From Spiroplasma sp. NBRC 100390 (GTDB taxonomy: Bacteria > Bacillota_I > Bacilli_A > Mycoplasmatales > Mycoplasmataceae): a DNA stretch of 64,000 nt. The position numbers were made by a program, and so were the translations under genes. Every line of letters begins with the position of its first letter. Position 1 is the first letter of the stretch. Under the pieces are notes generated by a model. The model was not told where the DNA came from, did no database searches, and saw only the letters and a program-made list of their open reading frames with translations. Shown in pieces: positions 11,103 through 41,928 of the stretch. The stretch spans positions 744,001 through 808,000 of the forward strand of contig NZ_CP018022.1 of the NCBI RefSeq assembly GCF_001886495.1. Direction: 5' to 3'.

Positions 11103-13217
11103 CTATTCCGTATTTAATTGATATATTCTTCATTTTTCACCGGTTGCTAACGCTAATAGTGTGCCATCTTGCACTTGAATTAACGAAGTTATCGTACTAT
11201 GTTCAACAAAGGGTTTATCATAATTTGTAAAATAATTTTGAATACTTCCTTGGGCGTTCAGCACATACATATCATATTTTGCTCTGCCATTCCCCGATAA
11301 AGGAGCCCCCGCAATTAAAACAGTTCCATCTTGTAGTGGTGTTATTGCACTAATTGTACTAGGTTTAATTCACGGATTACTTTTAATATTAAAAATCTCT
11401 CTAGCACTATTTGCATATAAATCAAGCTCATAAATAATTTCATCAGTTTGTACTCAAATTTTTCCGTTTGATAATTGAATAACATTTTGGATATCATTAG
11501 CGAAATATTTGCCATTAATAAATCCAACTTTTGTCCCTGTCGAAGATAAATGATAAATATTTTTACCCCAAGTTGCTAACACTGTTCCATCTTGTAACAA
11601 CGTTAATGTTGAATAATTACCATAATCATAGTCTGGATCATTAAAAATAGCACCTCTCTCCTGTCAGTCATCTCAGACATATTTATATTGATAAACTGTA
11701 TCGTACTTTTGTCCTCAAAAAACGTCATCTTGTAATTTAATAATTGCTGTTGGAAAAAAACTATCGCTTTTTCGTTTCAATATTTTTGAATTTAAATCTA
11801 TTTGAGATAAAATACCATTCTGACTTGGCAGAACAATATCACCATTATTAAACTGTGTAATTTTATTTTTTTTTGAAAAACGAATGCCATCTTCTCCCCA
11901 ACCTGTCTCTTCTCGAAACAAAATATCTTTAATTTGGCCAACTCGCATATTTAATAAAGCATAATTAACAATAACAGAACTAGTTGCGATATATTCTGAA
12001 CTTTCTGTTTTAACAACGATACTTGCTTGTCGACTATTAATTGATTTAAGATCAACAGCAACTTCATCAATAACAACATTTGGATTTTTTGCTTTTACAG
12101 CAGCTAAAATTGTTGTTGGTTTTTTATTTTCAATTTTACCTAAATTAACATTTTGTAAATCAGCAGATAATAATTTTTTTCCACTCGTATTAAAATAAAT
12201 TGTAACCATATCATTATCAACATAAGTGGTATTATTAACTGTTGCTATAATACTAGCTTGATTTGGTGCAATATTTTGAACTATTATTTGACTAACAACT
12301 AACTTTGGGTTACTGTTTTTAGTAACCGTTAAAATGTTTTCTGGTGTTAACTGATCAACTTTTTCTCATAAGACTAAATTAGAGAGGTGTGTATTAATAG
12401 TTAGTCGGTCAGGATAAAAGTAAACATCAACATAAGAGTTATCAACATAATAAATACTAGAAGACTTTACATAAACACGAGCTTTTGTTTCAACAATATT
12501 CTGAATAAAAACATCTTCAGTTTTTAAGTCTGGGTTTTTTGCTTTAATAGCATTTAAAATAGTTGTACTAGTATTATTTTGAATTTTACCAAGCATTTGA
12601 TTCTTTAACACGGTGCCCAATGAAACTCGGGGTCATTTTCTTAGATCAGTCACGATGTTTGGACCTAATTCTGTTTGTGAAAAGTAAAGACCTAAGGTTG
12701 TTCCTAAACTAGCAGCAATTAATAAGATTAATAGTAACCAAATAATTAATACATGACGTTTCATTTGTGTTGCACAGCAAAATCGATGATAACGCGTCAT
12801 TGCTAAATGACGATTTTGTAAATAGCCTTTTTTATCCACTGAAACAGGGTTTGCTTTTATCAAAACAGGTAAATTTACTTCTTTTTTTACAAGATTATGT
12901 TCTTCAAGAAGAACATTTATAATTTCATCTTCTTCATCAGAATTAAATAAACATTCTTGAACAATTGCTTTAATATGTTGATTTTCATCAGATAAACTTT
13001 CTTTAGTAAAAATACCAAAACGACGTTTTGCACATTGCAAAAAAACCAAAATTTTAATATTATGTTCCTTTCGTTTTTTCACAATTTCTAAATCTTTAAT
13101 TTCTAACAAAATTGCATTTTTTAAAAATTCTTTTTTTTCATTTTTTACAATTATTAGTTTTTGTTTTAACTTAATTTGACACTTATCACATAAAGTTTTT
13201 ACACTAATGGTTTTCAT
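11103..13217 (-). CDS. CxxC / single-TM surface protein with three adhesin-like repeats and a propeller-like tail
   Basis: 704 residues in one frame when TGA is Trp. Order: cytoplasmic domain with C-x2-C at residues 10-13 and a CAKRRFGIF motif near 62-70; basic stretch and membrane helix at about 155-179; three repeats of about 70 residues (each opening with an LG-x-I-x-N type segment, then TTILNAIKAKNP or similar, and ending in YVD-rich strands), which resemble the repeats of Spiroplasma DUF3688-type lipoproteins; then 5-6 propeller-like blades with LQDGTVL, LSNGKIW, LQDGTVL and VQDGTLL turns. Topology should be inside-N, outside-C. ATG follows GGAGG. Preceded by a structured leader. Likely a surface receptor or adhesin; function inferred. 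Confidence 0.8.
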
Positions 13218-13323: not shown

Positions 13324-13357
13324 AAAAAAATGAGAATTTTAAAACTAAAACTCTCAT
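13324..13357 (-). terminator. terminator in the leader of the surface-protein gene
   Basis: 6-bp plus 5-bp stem (13330-13341 with 13346-13357, one mismatch, AAAC loop) followed on the minus strand by seven T. It stands before, not after, the 13217 start, so it looks like an attenuator. Confidence 0.6.
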
Positions 13358-13429
13358 AAATTTATAGCAAAATGCTATAATTATTTATGAGAGCATAGTT
13401 GTGGTTTCGCGATCTTGAGTATGCTCTCA
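13351..13429. promoter_or_regulatory. two mutually exclusive hairpins
   Basis: Hairpin 1 pairs 13351-13361 with 13383-13393 (11 bp) and has an inner 7-bp stem (13363-13369 with 13373-13379). Hairpin 2 pairs 13388-13397 with 13420-13429 (10 bp). They share 13388-13393, so only one can form at a time. Strand of action is not certain. Confidence 0.6.
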
Positions 13430-13447
13430 CATATATATTTTTAAATT

Positions 13448-13620: not shown

Positions 13621-14472
13621 ATGAAACGTTGAACTTATCGAATTTGATATAAAGATTATCTTTGATATTATAAATTAATAATTGCCATTTTAGCCTTTAC
13701 TTTTTTAGCTTATGGTTTTTATGCTGATATTTTCAAAGAGTTCTGATATGTCGATAAAAATTCTTATCGCTCTAGTTTACAAAATTATGATATATTATTA
13801 AGTTTTTATTCAGTTCAGGTTAATATCATTACGATTGTTTGATTAATGTTAGCAATTTTTAACCATCATCGTGAACAAAAAAGTTGATTTTTTTCAACAA
13901 ACTTTAAATTAAGCATCTTAAATTGAAACTTATTAATGTTCTTTATTTTTTGAATTGGAATTATTATTGGGTATAAGAATGGGCAAGTAACTATTGCTGA
14001 GTACACTAAAGCGCAAATTAGTTGTACGGTTGTCACCCACTTTATTATGCCCATCTTGTTTTTTGTTTATACCTTATTATCATTTGGTGATCATCGTATT
14101 AGCTGAAAAAAAGAATTTTTAACAAAAGATTGATGAATTAGTTTAAGCTATCCAATCTTTTATTTAATGTATGTTTTAATTCGTGCTGCCGCTTGAAACC
14201 GTGATGGTGATACAATTTGAGCTTATCCCTATCCTTTTTTGGATATTGATAATCCCCTCATTGCTGGGTTAACAAAAGTTCAAGCCACTTTCTTTATTAT
14301 CTTTGTTTTTACAGTTGTCTTTACTACTTTCCATGTTCTCTTGCAAAGTTTCAACAATGGAATGTATCGGGTATTTAATAAGTATCAAAATCGCACCTTA
14401 TGATATAAAACAATTTATCAAAACATTAAACAAAAATTGAGAAATAAAAAAGCAAACAAAAAACGAAAATAG
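13621..14472 (+). CDS. multispanning membrane protein, Pr6Pr / FAR-17a-like
   Basis: 283 residues, hidden under the standard code by many TGA Trp codons. ATG follows AAGGAGGAAC. About six membrane helices; landmarks are an early YSVQVNIIT segment, a central SYPIFYLMYVLIRAA helix and YPYPFLDID, which match positions in the homologous protein at 54937-56157 (PLLYLICVLIRG and FPYFFLNF). That pattern fits the Pr6Pr / androgen-induced FAR-17a group of membrane proteins, whose bacterial function is not established. Ends with K-R-K-stop inside a large shared terminator. Confidence 0.75.
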
Positions 14473-32365: not shown

Positions 32366-34150
32366 TTAAATTACTATTTTTAAAACATCTGACACATCAT
32401 AACAGCCATACAAAAAACCATCCCCAGCAAACATCAATTCAGATAGCCCTCTTTTCAACTTAACTAAAAGTAATAAGTTTTGTTCTTTTATTCTATGATT
32501 CTTCATCAAATCCACCCGATAAACTCCCCTATTACTATCTTTGTTAACAACAGCATAAAAAAACCATTCCAAGCAGCAGCAGACACTATATTCCTTATTT
32601 CCCCACTAAAAATAAAATGTGTACCTTTTCTAGCATTATGCAAATATATCGGGTAAATAATACTGTCATCATCAAAAATATATAGATAGTACAAGATATC
32701 GTTCACCAAAAATAGCTCTTTTTGCCTTGTTTTTCCTCCTATAACATTTACTCACAAAAAGCTATTACCATTCTTCAAATCCACCCGATAAATAACACTT
32801 CCTCCATCAACCTCACCAAGAACATACAAAAAAACCATCCCCAGCAAAAAGCAATTTTTTCAAATCATTAAACATTTTAAATTCTTTATGATTTTGTAAA
32901 GTAACCTTAATTAAATTATTATACCCCATAATTAATTTACTTGTTGCTTGTGCTGTAATAACAATCCAAATATTGACACTACCTTTAGTCAAATTAATCT
33001 GTTGATATGAACCCTTATTTTCATCACCATAAATATCATAATGATAATCGACATTTAATTGTGCTTTATTACTAATTGTTTTAACTACTTGTTCAATAAC
33101 GGAATTATAAACATTACGAATATCATCTCTTGATACTCTCTCAGGATTTGGGACAGACAATAATTCTGGTCCAACCAAAGTTTTAATTTCAGCAATGTTT
33201 GATTTTTTTTCGCCTAACATTGGTAATGTTACTGCTAAATAATTAGTGTTATTAACTAAAAACTTACTATTAGGTCTTGCTTTAATCATTACTCAAATTT
33301 TAGCTGCACTTGTTACTAAATTAACCGGTTGAAAAACAGCACCCTTATTATCTGAAAAAAGATGATAATCATAATCGTCAAAAGTTGCTCCCCGTGAATG
33401 GATAATAACTTCTTGAAGAATTAAGTATTTTAAACTATCTTTAATCTCGTTTTCTTCAACTTTGTAAATATTTTTTGCATTAATCATCTCAGGACTTTTA
33501 ATTCTTGTAATTGCGCTTAAATCATAAAGAACTACTTGTGTTCTTTGATGCAAATATAAATATAATTGTCATCCCCCAATACTAGCAGCAACAAGAAACA
33601 GTAATAAAGCAACACCTAATATTACAAAAATTTTTATTAGTTTTTTATTGCGGTGATCCAACATTACAAATGTTTTTCTTAATCCTTGTACAATTTGATG
33701 TTGATTGTCCTTTAAATTTTCAATTGTTTGCGTCAATGCCTGTTCATTGGGAACACCACTATTATCAACAACTAATTTTTTTGGTTGTGATACAATATCT
33801 CGGGAAGGTACATCCCGATAAACATTAACTGTATTATATTGAAGTTGTGTTTCTAAAATATATGATGGTAAAATAATTTGTCCTTGTTTTAGTAATTCCT
33901 TTGCTTCTGAAGATAAATATCGAATATTATTTTGCAGAAAAAAACCATATAATTCTCTATTATGTTTAATCAGTGCAAATGGAATAATATTTTGATAAGT
34001 ACTTACTTGATCATTAACAATAATTTGATAGAATTGCATTGTTTTAATAAGCTCAGGTTTTTTTTCTTTAATCGATGACATAATCTTCTGAAAGTTAGTC
34101 TTACACTTATCACATAATTTATTATAGTTAAAAGTAATTTTAGAATCCAT
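32366..34150 (-). pseudogene. CxxC / single-TM protein with two spiralin-like repeats and frameshifted propeller tail
   Basis: Same architecture as the protein at 11103. Residues 13-16 are C-x2-C; an IPFALIKHNRELYGFF segment matches the family motif; membrane helix at about 170-200. Outside, two repeats of about 110 residues (each ending in an IWVxIxA...VTLP/Q pattern) are alike and resemble the spiralin fold; then a propeller with GDGF..YRVDL turns. The frame shifts by +1 at a T7 (32828-32834) and shifts back at a second T7 (32557-32563), restoring the original frame at the end. Could be phase-variable, decayed or an assembly error. ATG follows GAGGAGC. Confidence 0.7.
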
Positions 34151-34486: not shown

Positions 34487-35095
34487 TTATTGATTTAATT
34501 GTTCATGAAACTGTTTTAACATTATTTGTTGGTCACTTGTTAAAATATCAATATTAGCTACTAAAGCATCAAAAGTGGTTAAAGTATATAATGGAATTTG
34601 TAATTCGTTAAAAGCTGTTATAGCTTTTTTTAATTGATAATTAAAAATTGCTATAACAGCTACAACTTCCAATCCCGCTTGTTGTAACGTCTTGACAACT
34701 TCAATCGCAGAGCCACCGGTAGAAATTAAATCTTCAATCACAATCACGCGTTGTCCTGATTGATAAACTCCCTCAATTTGATTTTGTTTACCATGCTCTT
34801 TTTTACTACCTCGAACATATCCAAATGGTAATTGTAATAAATGCCCTAATAATGCAGCATGCGGAATCCCGGCCGTTGCTGTCCCAAAAATATTTTCAAT
34901 TTTAATTCCTGCTAATTTGGAGTGAACAATATGGGCAAATTCTTGAATAATTGCTCACCGTAATTGTGGATATCCCATAATTAAACGATTATCAATATAA
35001 ACTGGTGATTTAATGCCTGATGCTCATGTATATAATTTAATTGTATCAACATTAATTGCTTTAATATTGACTAATTCAGTAATAATTTTTTTCAT
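34487..35095 (-). CDS. pyrE: orotate phosphoribosyltransferase
   Basis: Orotate + PRPP to OMP. 202 residues; N-terminal TWASGIKSPVYIDNR is typical and the PRPP loop is VIVIEDLISTGGSA. TGA Trp codons occur (TWASG and LRWAI). Start ATG 35093-35095 is 1 bp from the pyrF stop. Last gene of the pyr operon. Confidence 0.95.
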
Positions 35096-35096
35096 T

Positions 35097-35792
35097 TTAT
35101 CCTTCTGCTCCTTCTGTAAAAATTGCTAAAATTTCTTGATAAACCGCAAATGGGTCAGAGGCCATTGTAATTGCACGACCAACTACTAAATAATCTACCC
35201 CTAATCTCTTTGCTGCTAATGGTGTTGCAATCCGTTTTTGATCAGTTTGATTTAATGTTAATTGAATACCAGGAGTTACTGTTTTTAAATTCGGAAAGTA
35301 TTGTTTAATCAAGGTTACTTCTGATGGAGCACAAATAACACCATAAAAATGATTATCAACAGCCATTCTAGCTAAATTTTTAACCAACTTGTTTGTTGTC
35401 AATGTTGAAGATAAAAACATTTCTTGTATATCCATGTTATCTAAACTAGTTAAAACTGTTACTCCCAATAATTTAATATTCGTATCTTGTACAATGTTAT
35501 ACGCTAATTCCAAGGTTTTTTGCCCACTTGTTAAATGAATTGTCACAAAATCAACTTGGTATTGTTTTAAAGCGTTTAACGCCTTTTCAACTGTCACAGG
35601 AATATCATTCAATTTTAAATCTAAAAAAATCGTATGCCCTTGTTCTTTTAAATCAGAAATAATTTCAAAACCAACCGCATAAATTAATTCCATTCCGACC
35701 TTCAGTGCTAATTGTTGCTGTGGAAATTTTGCTAAAAAACCTTCTAATTGTTCCCGTGAATTAAAATCACATGCAATAAAAACCTTATTCAT
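35097..35792 (-). CDS. pyrF: orotidine 5-phosphate decarboxylase
   Basis: OMP to UMP. 231 residues; catalytic D-L-K-L-N-D-I-P and C-terminal PGIQLT are typical. ATG 35790-35792 follows AAAGGAGGG and overlaps the pyrD stop by 8 bp. Confidence 0.95.
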   Translation of the reverse strand: MNKVFIACDFNSREQLEGFLAKFPQQQLALKVGMELIYAVGFEIISDLKEQGHTIFLDLKLNDIPVTVEKALNALKQYQVDFVTIHLTSGQKTLELAYNIVQDTNIKLLGVTVLTSLDNMDIQEMFLSSTLTTNKLVKNLARMAVDNHFYGVICAPSEVTLIKQYFPNLKTVTPGIQLTLNQTDQKRIATPLAAKRLGVDYLVVGRAITMASDPFAVYQEILAIFTEGAEG

Positions 35793-36711
35793 TTTTTCCC
35801 TCCTTTTGATGAGCAATTCCAACAATTTCACTAATATTATTTAGTTGATGTTGCTGACAATATTCTAATAATCCCGACTTAATCTCTCTTACTAAATTAG
35901 GATTTGTAAACAAACTAGTTCCAACCGCAACCACCCTAGCTCCAGCCATTAAAAATTCTAAGACATCATTTGTTGAACTAACACCACCCATCCCAATAAT
36001 TGGAATATTAACAACACTAGCAACTTCATAAACCATCCGAACAGCAATTGGTTTAATACAAGGACCACTTAATCCACCAATAATATTCCCTAAGGTCGGT
36101 TTTTTGGTTTTAAGATCAATTTGCATTGCTGGAATTGTATTAATTAAGCTAATTGCATCAGCATGTTCTTCTTGACAAATCAGAGCAAACTGCTTAATAT
36201 CAGTCACCGATGGTGATAATTTAACAATCAATTTCTTTTTTGTTAAGACACGTCGTACCCGCTTGACAATTTCTCGCGTAATAACTGGATCGGTTCCAAA
36301 TAAAATTCCCCCTTCTTTTACATTTGGACAAGAAATATTTAATTCAACAAAAGTAATGGTAGAAATATTGTTAATTGCTTTTGCCAAAGTTTCATATTCT
36401 TCAATTGTTTTTCCATTTAAATTAACAACAATTGGAATTTGAAAAGCTTGAAAAGTTGGGACAATTTTTGCCTGAAATTCCTTTAACCCCGGATTTTCTA
36501 AACCAATGGAATTAATAATTCCCCCCGTCACTTCTGCCAACCGTGGCGACGCATTCCCTGATCGTGGTTCTAAGGTAATCCCCTTTGTTGTTAACATTCC
36601 TAATTCATTAACAGCAAAGAAATCTTGATAACATTCACCATAACCAAAGGTTCCACTGGCAGTTGTTAACGGGGCATTTAAGGTATATCCTAAAAACTCT
36701 GTTTTTAACAT
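35785..36711 (-). CDS. pyrD: dihydroorotate dehydrogenase, class 1B catalytic subunit
   Basis: Oxidises dihydroorotate to orotate on FMN; class 1B uses NAD+ through PyrK. 308 residues; NISCPNVKEGG with the catalytic Cys (class 1), VVNLNGK and the final phosphate-binding GMGGVSS are present. Gene is next to pyrK, as expected. Confidence 0.95.
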   Translation of the reverse strand: MLKTEFLGYTLNAPLTTASGTFGYGECYQDFFAVNELGMLTTKGITLEPRSGNASPRLAEVTGGIINSIGLENPGLKEFQAKIVPTFQAFQIPIVVNLNGKTIEEYETLAKAINNISTITFVELNISCPNVKEGGILFGTDPVITREIVKRVRRVLTKKKLIVKLSPSVTDIKQFALICQEEHADAISLINTIPAMQIDLKTKKPTLGNIIGGLSGPCIKPIAVRMVYEVASVVNIPIIGMGGVSSTNDVLEFLMAGARVVAVGTSLFTNPNLVREIKSGLLEYCQQHQLNNISEIVGIAHQKEGKNE

Positions 36712-36713
36712 CT

Positions 36714-37499
36714 TTATTTTTCTCCTTCTTGCTTCTCATATTCAACAATAATAATTGGCCCATCCGTGCAAATTTTCTTATTAATCCCATCAATTGTTTT
36801 TGAACAACCCATACAAGCTCCAACACCACAAGCCATATGACTTTCATAAGAGATTTGTGTTGCAATTTGCTTTTGTTTTGCAATTTGATTAATTTTTGTT
36901 AAAACAACATCTGGCCCACACGCAACAATCATTTCTGGTTGGTGTTCTTGTAAATACTGTTCTAATGCTATAACAATGTTTTGCTGGCATCCAATTGACC
37001 CATCATCTGTGTTTAATAAAAAGGAAATATTATCTTGAAATAAAGATAAAACATTTAAGGCATTTTTAGTTCGTCCCCCAAAAATTGCTGTATACTTAAT
37101 ACCTTTTTTAATCAAATCATCAATTAACGCTTTCATTGGCGCAATACCAATTCCTCCCGCAATAATTAACAAATTATTGCTTTGCTCTGGAATTTGAAAC
37201 CCCTGTCCATGGGGACCCTGAATTTGAACTGTTTGACCAACCGTTCATTTATTTGCCATATACCAGGTTCCCAACCCCTTGCATTGATAATAAACAGCAA
37301 TGGTTTCTGCTTTAACATTAATATCAAAGAAACTAAATGGTCGCTTTAAAAAGAACTGCTGTGATGGTTCGATTAACATAAATTGGCCTGGCTGAGCAAT
37401 TCTACTAAGTTGTGGAGCTTTAAAAGTTGCTAGTCATAAATCAGGTCCCAACTGCTCATTGGCTAATAATGTTGTTGTTTCAATTATTTGTTTTCCCAT
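36714..37499 (-). CDS. pyrK: dihydroorotate dehydrogenase electron-transfer subunit
   Basis: FAD and [2Fe-2S] protein that passes electrons from PyrD to NAD+. 261 residues; flavin-binding RPFSFFD, GGIGIAPM, and the [2Fe-2S] cysteines in SHMACGVGACMGCS plus one near the end. ATG follows AGGAGC. Confidence 0.94.
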
Positions 37500-37502
37500 A
37501 AA

Positions 37503-38771
37503 TTATGCTCCTTCCTCATTTAAATGATGAATTATCCCATTATGAATATTCATAATTGGTCAACCGGTTAAGGCCGTCCCCAAAAAAGGCGTATTTGTTG
37601 CTTTTGATTTTAATAATTTACTAGTCACCGTTTGGGTTAATGCCAAATCAATTACTGTAAAGTTAGCTTGATTATTAACCTTTAATTGGACATCATGATG
37701 TTGAATTAACTTTTGGGGATTAACTGTTAAAGCATTAATAATTGTTGCTAATGGTACTTTTTGCGGTTGAACTAATTTTGTGTATAACAACGGAAAAGTT
37801 AATTGTAAACCAATAATCCCCATTGCACTAGTTACAAACAATTCTTTTTCTTTTGCTTGGTGCGGAGCATGGTCTGTTGCAATCACATCAATTGTGCCAT
37901 CATTTAAAGCGGCAATTAAACTTAATTGATCACTTTTTAGATTTAAAGGTGGATTCATAAGATAATTACCATCATTTATTAAGATATCATCTGTTGATAA
38001 TGTTAAATGATGTGGTGTTACTTCACAAGTTAAAAATGGATTAATTGCTTTACTCTTGCGAACTAAAGCGACACTTTTAGCCGTTGAAAGATGACATAAA
38101 TGATATCGTAACTGCAACTGATTGACAATTGCTAAATCACGCCTTAATGGTCCGGTCTCATAATTTTCATCAACTCCAGTTAAATTAAATCTTGCCGCAA
38201 CCGTTTGATTTAAAACAATTGTTGATGGCGATAATTCCTGGCGGTTATCAACATGTAACGAAACTAATTTATTATTAGTTTGTCCATATTTTAAAGCTGT
38301 TAGTAGTAAATCTTGATTAGTCAGATAAATACCATCATCACTAAAACCAATAACATCTTCACCGAAACTAGCAAAATCAACTGCTTTCTGCCCCGCTAAA
38401 TTATTAGTAATAGCGCTAAAGAATTGGATATTAATTGGTAATTTTTTTGCTTTCATTAATAATGGCGCTAAAACGGTTGGATGATCAATAACAGGACTTG
38501 TATTGGCCATTACACAAACTGTTTGATAACCACCATATAACCCGCTTAAGGCACCACTTACTAAATCTTCCTTCTCTGTTTGACCAGGCTCACGAAAATG
38601 TGCATGTAAATCAATAAAACTTGGCACAATAATACAAGTTGATGATAATTTAATTTCTGTTCCTAGCACTGCTGATCCAATTTGAATAATGGCATTATCT
38701 TGGATGGTAATATTTGTTTGTTGAAAACCAGTTGATAAATAAACCTTAGCATTAGTAAAAGTATAAATCAT
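37503..38771 (-). CDS. pyrC: dihydroorotase
   Basis: Cyclises carbamoyl aspartate. 422 residues, the type I monofunctional form; IDLHAHFREPGQTEKEDL (metal-binding H-x-H), HLSTAKS and ATDHAPH are present. ATG 38769-38771 is preferred over GTG 38781-38783, since the latter overlaps pyrB; neither has a strong ribosome site, suggesting coupling with pyrB. It ends 3 bp before the pyrK start. Confidence 0.94.
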
Positions 38772-38772
38772 T

Positions 38773-39654
38773 TTAGTTCGCACTTAAAATATTATTCAAC
38801 AAGGCCATTCGCACAAAAACTCCATTTGCCATCTGATCAAATATTTTTGCCTGTTTACATTCAACAACATCATCATCAATTTCAATCCCACGGTTAAATG
38901 GCGCTGGATGCATAATAATTGCAGTTGGTTTCATTGTTGTAACTAAAACTGGCGTTAATTTATAATTATGTAAATAATCTAAATGGTATTGTTCATTATT
39001 AGCAAAACGTTCAAATTGATAACGCAATAACATTACAACATCCATTTTTGGTAAATTCTCTTTAAAATCAACACTAACAACCCCCGGCATTTGCAATTCA
39101 TTAATTCCTGTCGTATAAACATTCATTCCTAACTTTTGCATAATCTGAATATTAGTTTTTGCAACACGAGAATACTTAATATCACCAACAATAATAATAT
39201 TTAACCCAGCAAAATTACCAAATTGTTCTTTAATTGTTAACAAATCTAATAAGCTTTGTGTTGGATGATTTCCCGAACCATCCCCGGCATTTAAAATTGG
39301 AATCTTAATTTTATCAATTAAAGCATCATAATAATTATTTTCTGGGTGGCGGATTACTAATGCATCAACCCCTAATGCTTCAAAAGTTCTGATGGTATCA
39401 TATAATGTTTCACCTTTTTTTGTAGCACTAAATTGCTCATTAAAATTTAAGGTTTTGCACCCTAATTTATGAGCAGCAACATCAAACGAATAATGTGTTC
39501 GCGTTGAAGGTTCAAAAAATAAGTTTGCCACAATTTTTCTTTGCTGATAATCTACTTTTTTAATATTATTTTTAAATTGCAAAGCTTCCATTAAAACAGC
39601 ATTAACTTCTTGCTCATTTCAATCATCTAAATTAAAAAGACTTTTACTTTTCAT
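38773..39654 (-). CDS. pyrB: aspartate carbamoyltransferase catalytic subunit
   Basis: Carbamoyl phosphate + aspartate to carbamoyl aspartate. 293 residues; carbamoyl phosphate loop S-T-R-T-H near residue 50, HPTQSLLDL and AGDGSGNHP are present. No pyrI regulatory gene is linked. First gene of the operon; preceded by a leader ORF and attenuator. Confidence 0.95.
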
Positions 39655-39691: not shown

Positions 39692-39743
39692 AAAAAAAAC
39701 TTACTTAATTAATAAGATAAATCCAATTAATTAAGTAAGTTTT
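39692..39743 (-). terminator. pyr operon attenuator
   Basis: Perfect 18-bp stem (39696-39713 with 39726-39743, 12-nt loop) followed by eight T on the minus strand. Ends about 40 bp before pyrB. The leader ORF stops inside the distal arm. Confidence 0.8.
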
Positions 39744-39857
39744 AAAATGATGGGGAGAAAATAAACTTAAGAACAAATGAGAAAGAAAAGTAAGAATTCT
39801 TTGCAGAAGATGTTTACTCTTATTTTTAACACAATTGTTCAATTTTCGCATTTGCAT
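39705..39857 (-). CDS. putative pyr leader peptide (50 residues)
   Basis: ATG 39855-39857 follows AAGGTGA with a 6-nt spacer, under a strong promoter (39879-39906). The 50 codons run without a break and stop at TAA (39705-39707) inside the 3-prime arm of the attenuator. Later codons are U-rich (Leu, Phe, Ser), and a TGG stands at codon 45. The function is inferred: a ribosome close behind RNA polymerase would keep the terminator from forming. Confidence 0.55.
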   Translation of the reverse strand: MQMRKLNNCVKNKSKHLLQRILTFLSHLFLSLFSPHHFKTYLINWIYLIN

Positions 39858-39878
39858 TTACTATCACCTTAATAATAT

Positions 39879-39906
39879 ATAATACCAAAAAAAATTAAAT
39901 TGTAAA
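39879..39906 (-). promoter_or_regulatory. pyr operon promoter
   Basis: On the minus strand: TTTACA, 16-nt spacer, extended -10 TGG-TATTAT. It lies just upstream of the leader ribosome site. Confidence 0.65.
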
Positions 39907-40033: not shown

Positions 40034-41928
40034 TTATGTTTTTTTTGTTTTTTGACTCTTCTTTTTTATTTGTCTTGCCCTCTTTTTATCATTTCGTGCT
40101 TGACGATACTTTGTCACTAATTCATTATGTAAAGTTTTTCATTCATTGCGATAGTAAACTTTTAAACCGCGACGCTCTTGTAAATTTGAGCTATTTTTCA
40201 ATTCAACACGTTGACGAAGACGCAGTTCTTTTGTCTTTGGTTCCGCATAATTCCGACCAGTAAAAAAGAACTGAATCCGACCCAAATAATTAAGCGGAAC
40301 AGCGGTCCCCTTATTTTTTGCAATTTTATTAGCAATTAAAATAAAGGGAATGTAAAGCACAGCCATTAAAATTAAATTTGAGAGAGCTAAAATAATTCCC
40401 TTCCAACTTCCCGTTGTCAGAAAACCACCAATTCCCACCGGCGCCATTCAAGGAATTAATAATGCTGCTCCTGGCACAACACCAATTTGCATTCAAAACC
40501 ATGTTCAAACTACTAGTAAACATGACCCAATAATGGCGGGAATTGCCATCACAGGGTTTAAAAATAACGGATATGCAAAAGTTACTGGTTCATCAATATT
40601 AAAAATTCCTGGAGCAATTAAATTTTTTGAAATAATTCGGGTCTGTTTATCACGCCCCATAATTAAAGTCATAAGTATTAACCCCAAGGACATTCCTCAT
40701 CCCCCTAAAAAGATGAAGGCATCAAAAAATCCTAGCGAAAAAATAAATGGAAGGTCTTGACCGGCTTTAAAGGCAATTGAATTTTGAACGGTTGCATATA
40801 ATCAAATTGGTCCAAAAATTCCATTCATAATGTTTGTTCCATGTAAACCAAAAAACCAAAAAATTGAAGCAAAGAAAATATAAATTAAGGCAAATCCTAA
40901 CCCAACATTGGGATTAGAAGCAGCTTTCATAAAAGGATATGTGAAAAATTTATAAATTAAAGTAACTAGTGTTAATGCTTTAAAATTTAAATTAAAGGCA
41001 CTATACTCTGGTTCAGTTGTTTTATTCAACAGAGTAAAATCGCCTCACATTGGATCAGAAGTCATTGTTAAATATTCAATTTTTTAACTAATGTACTTTG
41101 AACCGCAGTTAATGGTTGTAAAGTTCCATTCAATAATTGAAACATATCACCCGCAGTATTGCGATAAATTCCCGCAAAATTATCTTGTTTAGTAAATTGT
41201 TGATTAAATTGGTCAACCACAGTAAATTCAATTGATGAAAAAACTAATAACTGCGACACAATTCCAAACAAAAAAGTCGTAATAATTATTGGCAATAATT
41301 TTGCAAAAGCATGACCAACCGCTGGGGGAACATTTTTTGGCATTCTAATTGCTAAGCGATTATTACGTTGTAACAAAATAAATAATTCCGCACTCAAAAA
41401 AGCAATAATAATTCCAGAAAACAATCCTTCTGCCCCCATAAATTTATGAGTAAATTCTCAACCAGCAATCCCGGCTCCCGCCACAATAAAAGTTGCAAAC
41501 GAGACAATTCCAGCCATTATTGCCGGATCTTGACCACGACGTTTTCCTAACAAATAACCAATTAGAAAAACAATATACAAGGTCATAACCATTAATGAAG
41601 CATTTCAAATTACCCCATTAACCGATTTTAAAGCATCAAGAGCTTTTACCGCATTAGGTAAGAAAACAATGCTATCACCTTCAAAACCGACATACATTTT
41701 ACTTCAATAAGCAATTCAATATGATAATGAAATAACACTTTCACCTAAGATAATTTGATTAATAAATACGGCCAAAGCTCCCGCAATTAATAACGGAGTA
41801 ATTAAAGCAAAACTATCCCGAATAATTGATAAGTGTGTTTGATTTCCAATTTTTCCAACAGTTGGAATAAATTTATTATTTAATCACGTTGTAAATTTAT
41901 TCGGTTTTGTCGTCACTGATTCTTCCAT
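40034..41928 (-). pseudogene. celB: PTS IIC, lactose/cellobiose family, frameshifted
   Basis: Sugar-transport channel with about 10 helices. ATG 41926-41928 follows AAGGTGA. Reads to a stop at 41068-41070; the second half (GLHGTNIMNGI, PVTFAYPLFLNP and a 60-residue basic tail) lies in another frame. The shift is at a T6 (41081-41086): one extra base there would restore a continuous frame. So either the gene is inactive, an in-frame ATG at 41063-41065 starts a second polypeptide, or slippage repairs it. The extended C-terminal tail is unusual. IIB gene is intact next to it; the IIA gene was not found. Confidence 0.75.

Follow-up and report, generated by a model that had tools for sequence, protein, structure and literature searches.

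At the pyrL leader of the E. coli pyrBI operon, RNA polymerase runs through and terminates when UTP is abundant; when UTP is limiting, it pauses where the template requires U, and a ribosome coupled to it prevents the hairpin from forming (PMC10135430). Terminators are repressed by ribosomes at a stop codon a few bases away, an effect abolished by uncoupling (PMC4824070). Coupling of RNA polymerase and ribosome exists in Mycoplasma pneumoniae, and in Bacillus ribosomes have been reported to lag behind the polymerase; gene ends at terminators serve as a proxy for a polymerase that outruns the ribosome (PMC7858274). A translated leader can also take the place of another type of attenuator, as in Firmicutes, where histidine leader peptides replace T-boxes before hisS/hisZ (PMC2965389). 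Neither pyrBI-type attenuation in a mollicute nor pyr attenuation in Spiroplasma was found described in the open-access literature; subscription papers were mostly outside the scope of this search.

The locus studied here heads a pyr operon in a 64,000-nt stretch of Spiroplasma DNA, the whole of which is referred to as the window. We consider it likely that the leader of this operon is a transcription attenuator read by the ribosome in the manner of pyrBI; translation, pausing, UTP sensing, termination and anti-termination are all inferred. The basis for this reading is the anatomy of the leader, its conservation, the drift of its peptide with the frame kept, the loss of the ORF where pyrB is dead and a reciprocity with PyrR. 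Like the hisS/hisZ leaders, it would be a translated leader substituting for another attenuator type in a Gram-positive lineage. Unlike them, it has no codon run corresponding to their run of histidine codons, and it precedes pyrimidine genes.

Anatomy of the leader compared with E. coli pyrL

Downstream of the leader the gene order is pyrBCKDFE. The elements of the leader and the genes of the operon are as follows.

39879-39906, minus strand: promoter, TTTACA and a TG-extended TATTAT with a 16-nt spacer (10/12 consensus matches)
39866-39872, minus strand: ribosome binding site AAGGTGA
39705-39857, minus strand: leader ORF, 50 codons with an ATG start; its TAA stop (39705-39707) lies in the distal terminator arm
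39744-39803, minus strand: U-rich, pyrimidine-rich tract before the hairpin (~53% U), the proposed pause region (pausing inferred)
39696-39743, minus strand: intrinsic terminator stem-loop of 18 bp, AAAACTTACTTAATTAAT / ATTAATTAAGTAAGTTTT, followed by T8
39692-39699, minus strand: T8 run of the terminator, overlapping the stem end
38773-39654, minus strand: pyrB, aspartate carbamoyltransferase (NF002032, 334 bits, cut-off 263)
37503-38783, minus strand: pyrC, dihydroorotase (TIGR00857, 322 bits, cut-off 279)
36714-37499, minus strand: pyrK, dihydroorotate dehydrogenase electron transfer subunit (Fe-S domain PF10418 above cut-off; NF000798, 149 bits, below cut-off)
35785-36711, minus strand: pyrD, dihydroorotate dehydrogenase (NF005574, 383 bits, cut-off 269)
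35097-35792, minus strand: pyrF, orotidine-5'-phosphate decarboxylase (NF001273, 217 bits, cut-off 193)
34487-35095, minus strand: pyrE, orotate phosphoribosyltransferase (TIGR00336, 135 bits, cut-off 106.8)

An earlier note on this DNA had claimed a promoter with an extended -10 element, an AAGGTGA ribosome site with a 50-codon ORF, an 18-bp terminator with T8 and a stop codon inside the distal terminator arm, and each of these was found where that note had placed it. Its description of the RNA before the stem as U-rich also held, the best 60 nt containing 32 U, a level reached by 0.25% of neighbouring coding windows. The terminator has a folding energy of -19 kcal/mol (z -8.1), and none of 200 shuffles was equally stable; its stem is almost all A-U and the distal arm is AT-only. 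Among the strong hairpin-plus-T-run sites of the 64 kb it is the closest before a gene start, lying 42 nt before pyrB and 291 nt beyond the stop codon of the preceding gene. Since a promoter scan gave no promoter-like site within the ~42 nt between terminator and pyrB, transcription of the operon appears to need read-through of the leader terminator; there are no RNA data, and a start 3' of the terminator cannot be excluded. The product of the leader ORF is short and hydrophobic with a basic N-terminus, and Pfam and NCBIfam searches with it gave no match.

We read E. coli pyrL as a control alongside the Spiroplasma leaders. Both have a leader ORF of similar size (44 codons in E. coli versus 50) that overlaps an intrinsic terminator directly before pyrB. 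The geometry differs. In E. coli the stop codon lies 17 nt beyond the T-run, so that the ORF spans the terminator, whereas in Spiroplasmataceae it lies inside the hairpin in all eight leaders found (six short and two long); a stop beyond the terminator is probably not essential to the mechanism. The E. coli stem has 8 bp, mostly G-C, compared with 18 bp of almost all A-U in Spiroplasma, and the 60 nt before the stem contain 28% U compared with 53%. The window has a terminator before the first pyr gene, a leader ORF reaching it and a U-rich transcript, as expected of the pyrBI type, with translation and pausing inferred. By this analogy we regard its leader as a variant that would work like pyrBI and not as a proven member of that class. 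The earlier note had gone further and seen here the architecture of pyrBI itself, with coupled translation. Its coupled-translation reading is supported by the conservation and the absence of PyrR described below, but in geometry the leader departs somewhat from E. coli pyrL.

Several other features of the window were recorded. A PTS cellobiose-type EIIC gene (40034-41928, minus strand) is broken near 41068 by a change of frame, which leaves two ORFs of 286 and 343 aa; its counterpart in a relative (G174, L042:848-2767) is a single frame of 640 codons, and the break could reflect either a sequencing error or a frameshift. A lipoprotein gene of the spiralin type, which together with the reading of TGA as tryptophan marks the genus as Spiroplasma, lies upstream of one with a phosphofructokinase-like translation, the latter named by eye. 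At 32488-34150 (minus strand) a weakly spiralin-like protein is encoded (NF038030, 97 bits, cut-off 140); it apparently continues in a second, overlapping ORF read in a different frame. Two hairpins, one of them GAGAGC..GCTCTC, and a terminator at 13330-13430 (minus strand) lie ~113 nt before a gene for a 704-aa protein (11103-13217); the Rfam scan of the window gave no match there, and the region is possibly a structured leader.

Expectation from chance and conservation of the short leader

Promoter-like matches are not enriched in the region (5 found versus 5.2 expected), so the promoter call rests on conservation and not on the scan. In dinucleotide shuffles the frame of the window leader is open by chance with P = 0.25, and the frames of the short leaders gave P 0.11-0.28 in shuffles; the open frame alone was therefore rejected as significant. 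The stop within the hairpin, taken alone, was rejected as well. Each of the three frames meets a TAA in the distal arm, ATTAATTAAGTAAG, so a frame that stays open as far as the hairpin ends there, and ordinary genes of the window also stop at or inside terminators (offsets +2, 0, -1, -1 and -10). Gene stop codons at or inside strong terminator stems were noted at 14462, 24924, 27117 and 30920. Because neither the open frame nor the stop position is remarkable by chance, the window sequence alone is no proof, and it is the relatives that make the case.

The promoter, ribosome site, ORF and terminator are also present before pyrB in four genomes of the same genus (G174, G079, G109 and G129), and a diverged version of the leader precedes pyrB in another genus (G082), which with the window makes six homologous short-leader operons. 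On direct reading the promoter is kept in the four genomes of the genus, and the ribosome site in its context is invariant in the five close leaders save for the last base or two. Between the AUG and the hairpin arm lie 111, 117 or 120 nt, a distance that keeps its value modulo 3 despite insertions and deletions. In substitution simulations at 20-40% divergence the frame stayed open in ~12-35% of trials. As the indels are also multiples of three, the leader frame is unlikely to have been retained neutrally across three lineages, with the proviso that the lineages are not strictly independent. The closest pair has a leader-ORF dN/dS of 0.23; beyond it the values are mostly 0.6-1.1 and at most 1.6, compared with 0.11-0.13 for pyrB. 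Since these values are high relative to pyrB and the frame is kept, we infer that the reading frame is maintained and that the peptide is largely free to drift, except for a segment LFSPxxFxTYL. The earlier note had expected of a real attenuator an ORF that varies in sequence but keeps its stop in the stem, and this is what was observed: the ORF is present in all six homologous operons, its sequence drifts, its frame is constant and its stop lies in the hairpin.

Constraint may also act on the RNA. Synonymous divergence between the window and G079 is 0.27 for the leader and 0.52 for pyrB, and the lower value for the leader suggests such a constraint. All five close leaders have 32-33 U per 60 nt, a level reached by 0.16-0.25% of coding windows. 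One leader (L008) has a lower U content in its pre-hairpin tract (43%), and its stop codon falls in the proximal arm. Where pyrB is a remnant with stops (G091, L032), the body of the leader ORF is deleted. G079 (L043) has an intact leader before a truncated pyrB, with no further pyr gene found in the vicinity.

Distribution of PyrR and leader ORFs

Among 60 Spiroplasmataceae genomes, 13 have a pyrB match at E below 1e-25. PyrR adjoins pyrB in five of these operons (208-228 bits, cut-off 138), and in four of the five genomes (G153, G103, G168 and G085) RF00515 matches at the operon head, directly 5' of pyrR or close to it; in the other genome of the PyrR type (G097) the sole RF00515 match is ~33 kb away. 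PyrR-dependent attenuation would act at the head of the same operon. The remaining eight genomes differ from these five in having neither a PyrR above cut-off nor RF00515, and all eight have a leader ORF that stops inside a terminator hairpin, six of them of the short type and two (G183 and G177) of a long type. For the genome of the window the best PyrR match was 22 bits compared with the curated cut-off of 138. The earlier note had seen no PyrR-type loop in the leader, and the searches agree: there was no Rfam match at gathering score in the window, RF00515 is absent from its genome as well as from the seven other leader-ORF genomes, and the leader itself gave RNA-family matches at chance-level scores only. 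PyrR control of the window operon was rejected on the basis of these protein and RNA searches.

In G183 and G177 pyrD precedes pyrB, and a leader ORF of 90 and 105 codons, respectively, lies before pyrD. The ORF ends within the distal arm of a terminator whose 50-60-nt loop has an inner helix of its own. No more than 0.3% of shuffles leave such long frames open by chance. U makes up just 30-32% of the 60 nt that precede the hairpin, the U-rich part being mainly in the loop. In a PyrB tree with Paenibacillus and Atopobacter pyrB as outgroups, the short-leader group forms one side of a branch (100/100) and the long-leader pair nests within the PyrR-linked Spiroplasmataceae. Since the pair lies inside the PyrR clade, the leader-ORF design probably arose twice; from sequences alone we regard two origins within Spiroplasmataceae as possible. 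The simplest reading of the G183/G177 line would be loss of PyrR and a separate gain of a leader-ORF attenuator. The design also appears to have arisen apart from E. coli pyrBI, as inferred from phylogeny within Spiroplasmataceae without a test against E. coli.

The reciprocal pattern is not universal, since in another family of the order most pyrB genomes lack PyrR and have no comparable leader directly before pyrB, as far as the operon heads were read. In a group of mollicutes from another family (L009-L014) no leader ORF was seen just 5' of pyrB, and a near-identical AT-rich stretch, ATATTTATATAAATATAAATATC, lies directly before several of the pyrB start codons. G082 (L046) carries a pyrBCKDFE operon and leader of the window type with a PyrB 74% identical, and two of its genus mates have a PyrR-type operon (45-48%). 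It is possible that the operon was transferred together with its leader.

Proposed mechanism and alternative explanations

All anatomical parts of a coupling attenuator are present: the ribosome site lies close to the 5' end, the ORF extends into the hairpin, and the tract preceding the hairpin is U-rich. Judging from the promoter, RNA polymerase would start ~15 nt before the leader AUG, and AAGGTGA may serve to load a ribosome. With UTP plentiful, the polymerase would cross the U-rich leader fast, the ribosome would lag, and the 18-bp hairpin would fold and stop transcription before pyrB. With UTP scarce, the polymerase would slow in the tract directly before the hairpin; because the tract is pyrimidine-rich, CTP is perhaps sensed too. 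The ribosome would then close up, translate to the stop codon in the hairpin and prevent folding, allowing transcription through pyrBCKDFE. Even at a stop inside the hairpin, a ribosome should still cover the stem. The gene ends at terminators in this window suggest that ribosomes normally lag, which weighs against the proposal in that coupling would have to arise only at the slowed leader. By inference, termination would be the default in such a cell, and coupling brought about by a slowed polymerase would be the signal. NusG-like proteins, scoring just below the curated cut-off, are present in all eight leader-ORF genomes. Rho was not recognised in the genomes searched, where the best matches were below 46 bits compared with a cut-off of 509.

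One feature is not fully explained by coupling. The codons of LFSPxxFxTYL, which overlap the pyrimidine tract and the hairpin, are better conserved in the five close leaders than any other portion of the ORF, and more so than a pure coupling ORF requires; peptide stalling, pausing and ribosome-site pairing were considered. Pairing could take the form of a long-range helix between the ribosome site and start (GGUGAUAAUAAA) and the conserved UUUAUUCUCUCC; by shutting out ribosomes that arrive late, this helix would add a further gate to the coupling switch. RNAalifold pairs these two segments in five leaders, most pairs being unchanged, and the helix is also present in the minimum-free-energy fold of the window leader. 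It remains doubtful, since there is almost no covariation, the best partner lies elsewhere in L007, and in four of the five close leaders the duplex energies are no better than those of shuffles (P 0.28-0.78; 0.04 in L006). Moreover, pyrimidine-rich tracts pair with ribosome sites by composition.

Stalling would make the leader a nascent-peptide switch, in which the C-terminal LFSPxxFxTYL arrests the ribosome in response to a ligand, whether a pyrimidine or another, and the arrested ribosome then blocks the terminator. The strong conservation of these codons is in its favour, as is the C-terminal stretch LVNKxLxxTxFYVL common to the two long leaders. We nevertheless think it unlikely: the motif is absent in L008 and reads FYP instead of FSP in L004, the remaining peptide drifts, and much of the conserved stretch belongs to the hairpin or the tract, where constraint on the RNA would preserve it regardless.

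A small protein gene with its own terminator, pyrB owing its transcription to an undetected promoter or to unregulated leak, would account for a short, hydrophobic, N-terminally basic product in a window whose genes commonly end at a terminator. The mostly near 0.6-1.1 pairwise dN/dS, the lack of any family match and the lack of a promoter-like site before pyrB make this quite improbable. A DNA search of the family also argues against it, giving leader matches (E below 1e-12) only at pyrB loci or the pyrB remnant; candidate paralogous leaders elsewhere in the family were noise only. Attenuation of the trp/his type, with stalling at particular codons setting an alternative helix, shares with our leader a translated ORF followed by a terminator, but is hardly credible here because the six leaders have no codon run in common, a consensus fold (of five leaders, a small set) contains one long-range helix besides the terminator and no competitor of the terminator stem, and there is no amino acid that a pyr operon would obviously respond to.

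Returning to the coupling attenuator, we put forward tentatively, with confidence a little short of even, a wider proposal: PyrR control has been replaced at least twice independently in one mollicute family by ribosome-read attenuators that sense UTP by way of polymerase speed, in cells that have no PyrR and no recognisable Rho and whose ribosomes usually lag, so that coupling itself is the switch. If true, this would be a pyrimidine switch without a protein regulator in a reduced genome, and an attenuator that arose apart from the E. coli case, possibly twice. The reciprocal pattern of PyrR and leader would represent one attenuator type replacing another, and the leader would be a native readout of transcription-translation coupling in a Bacillus-related lineage.
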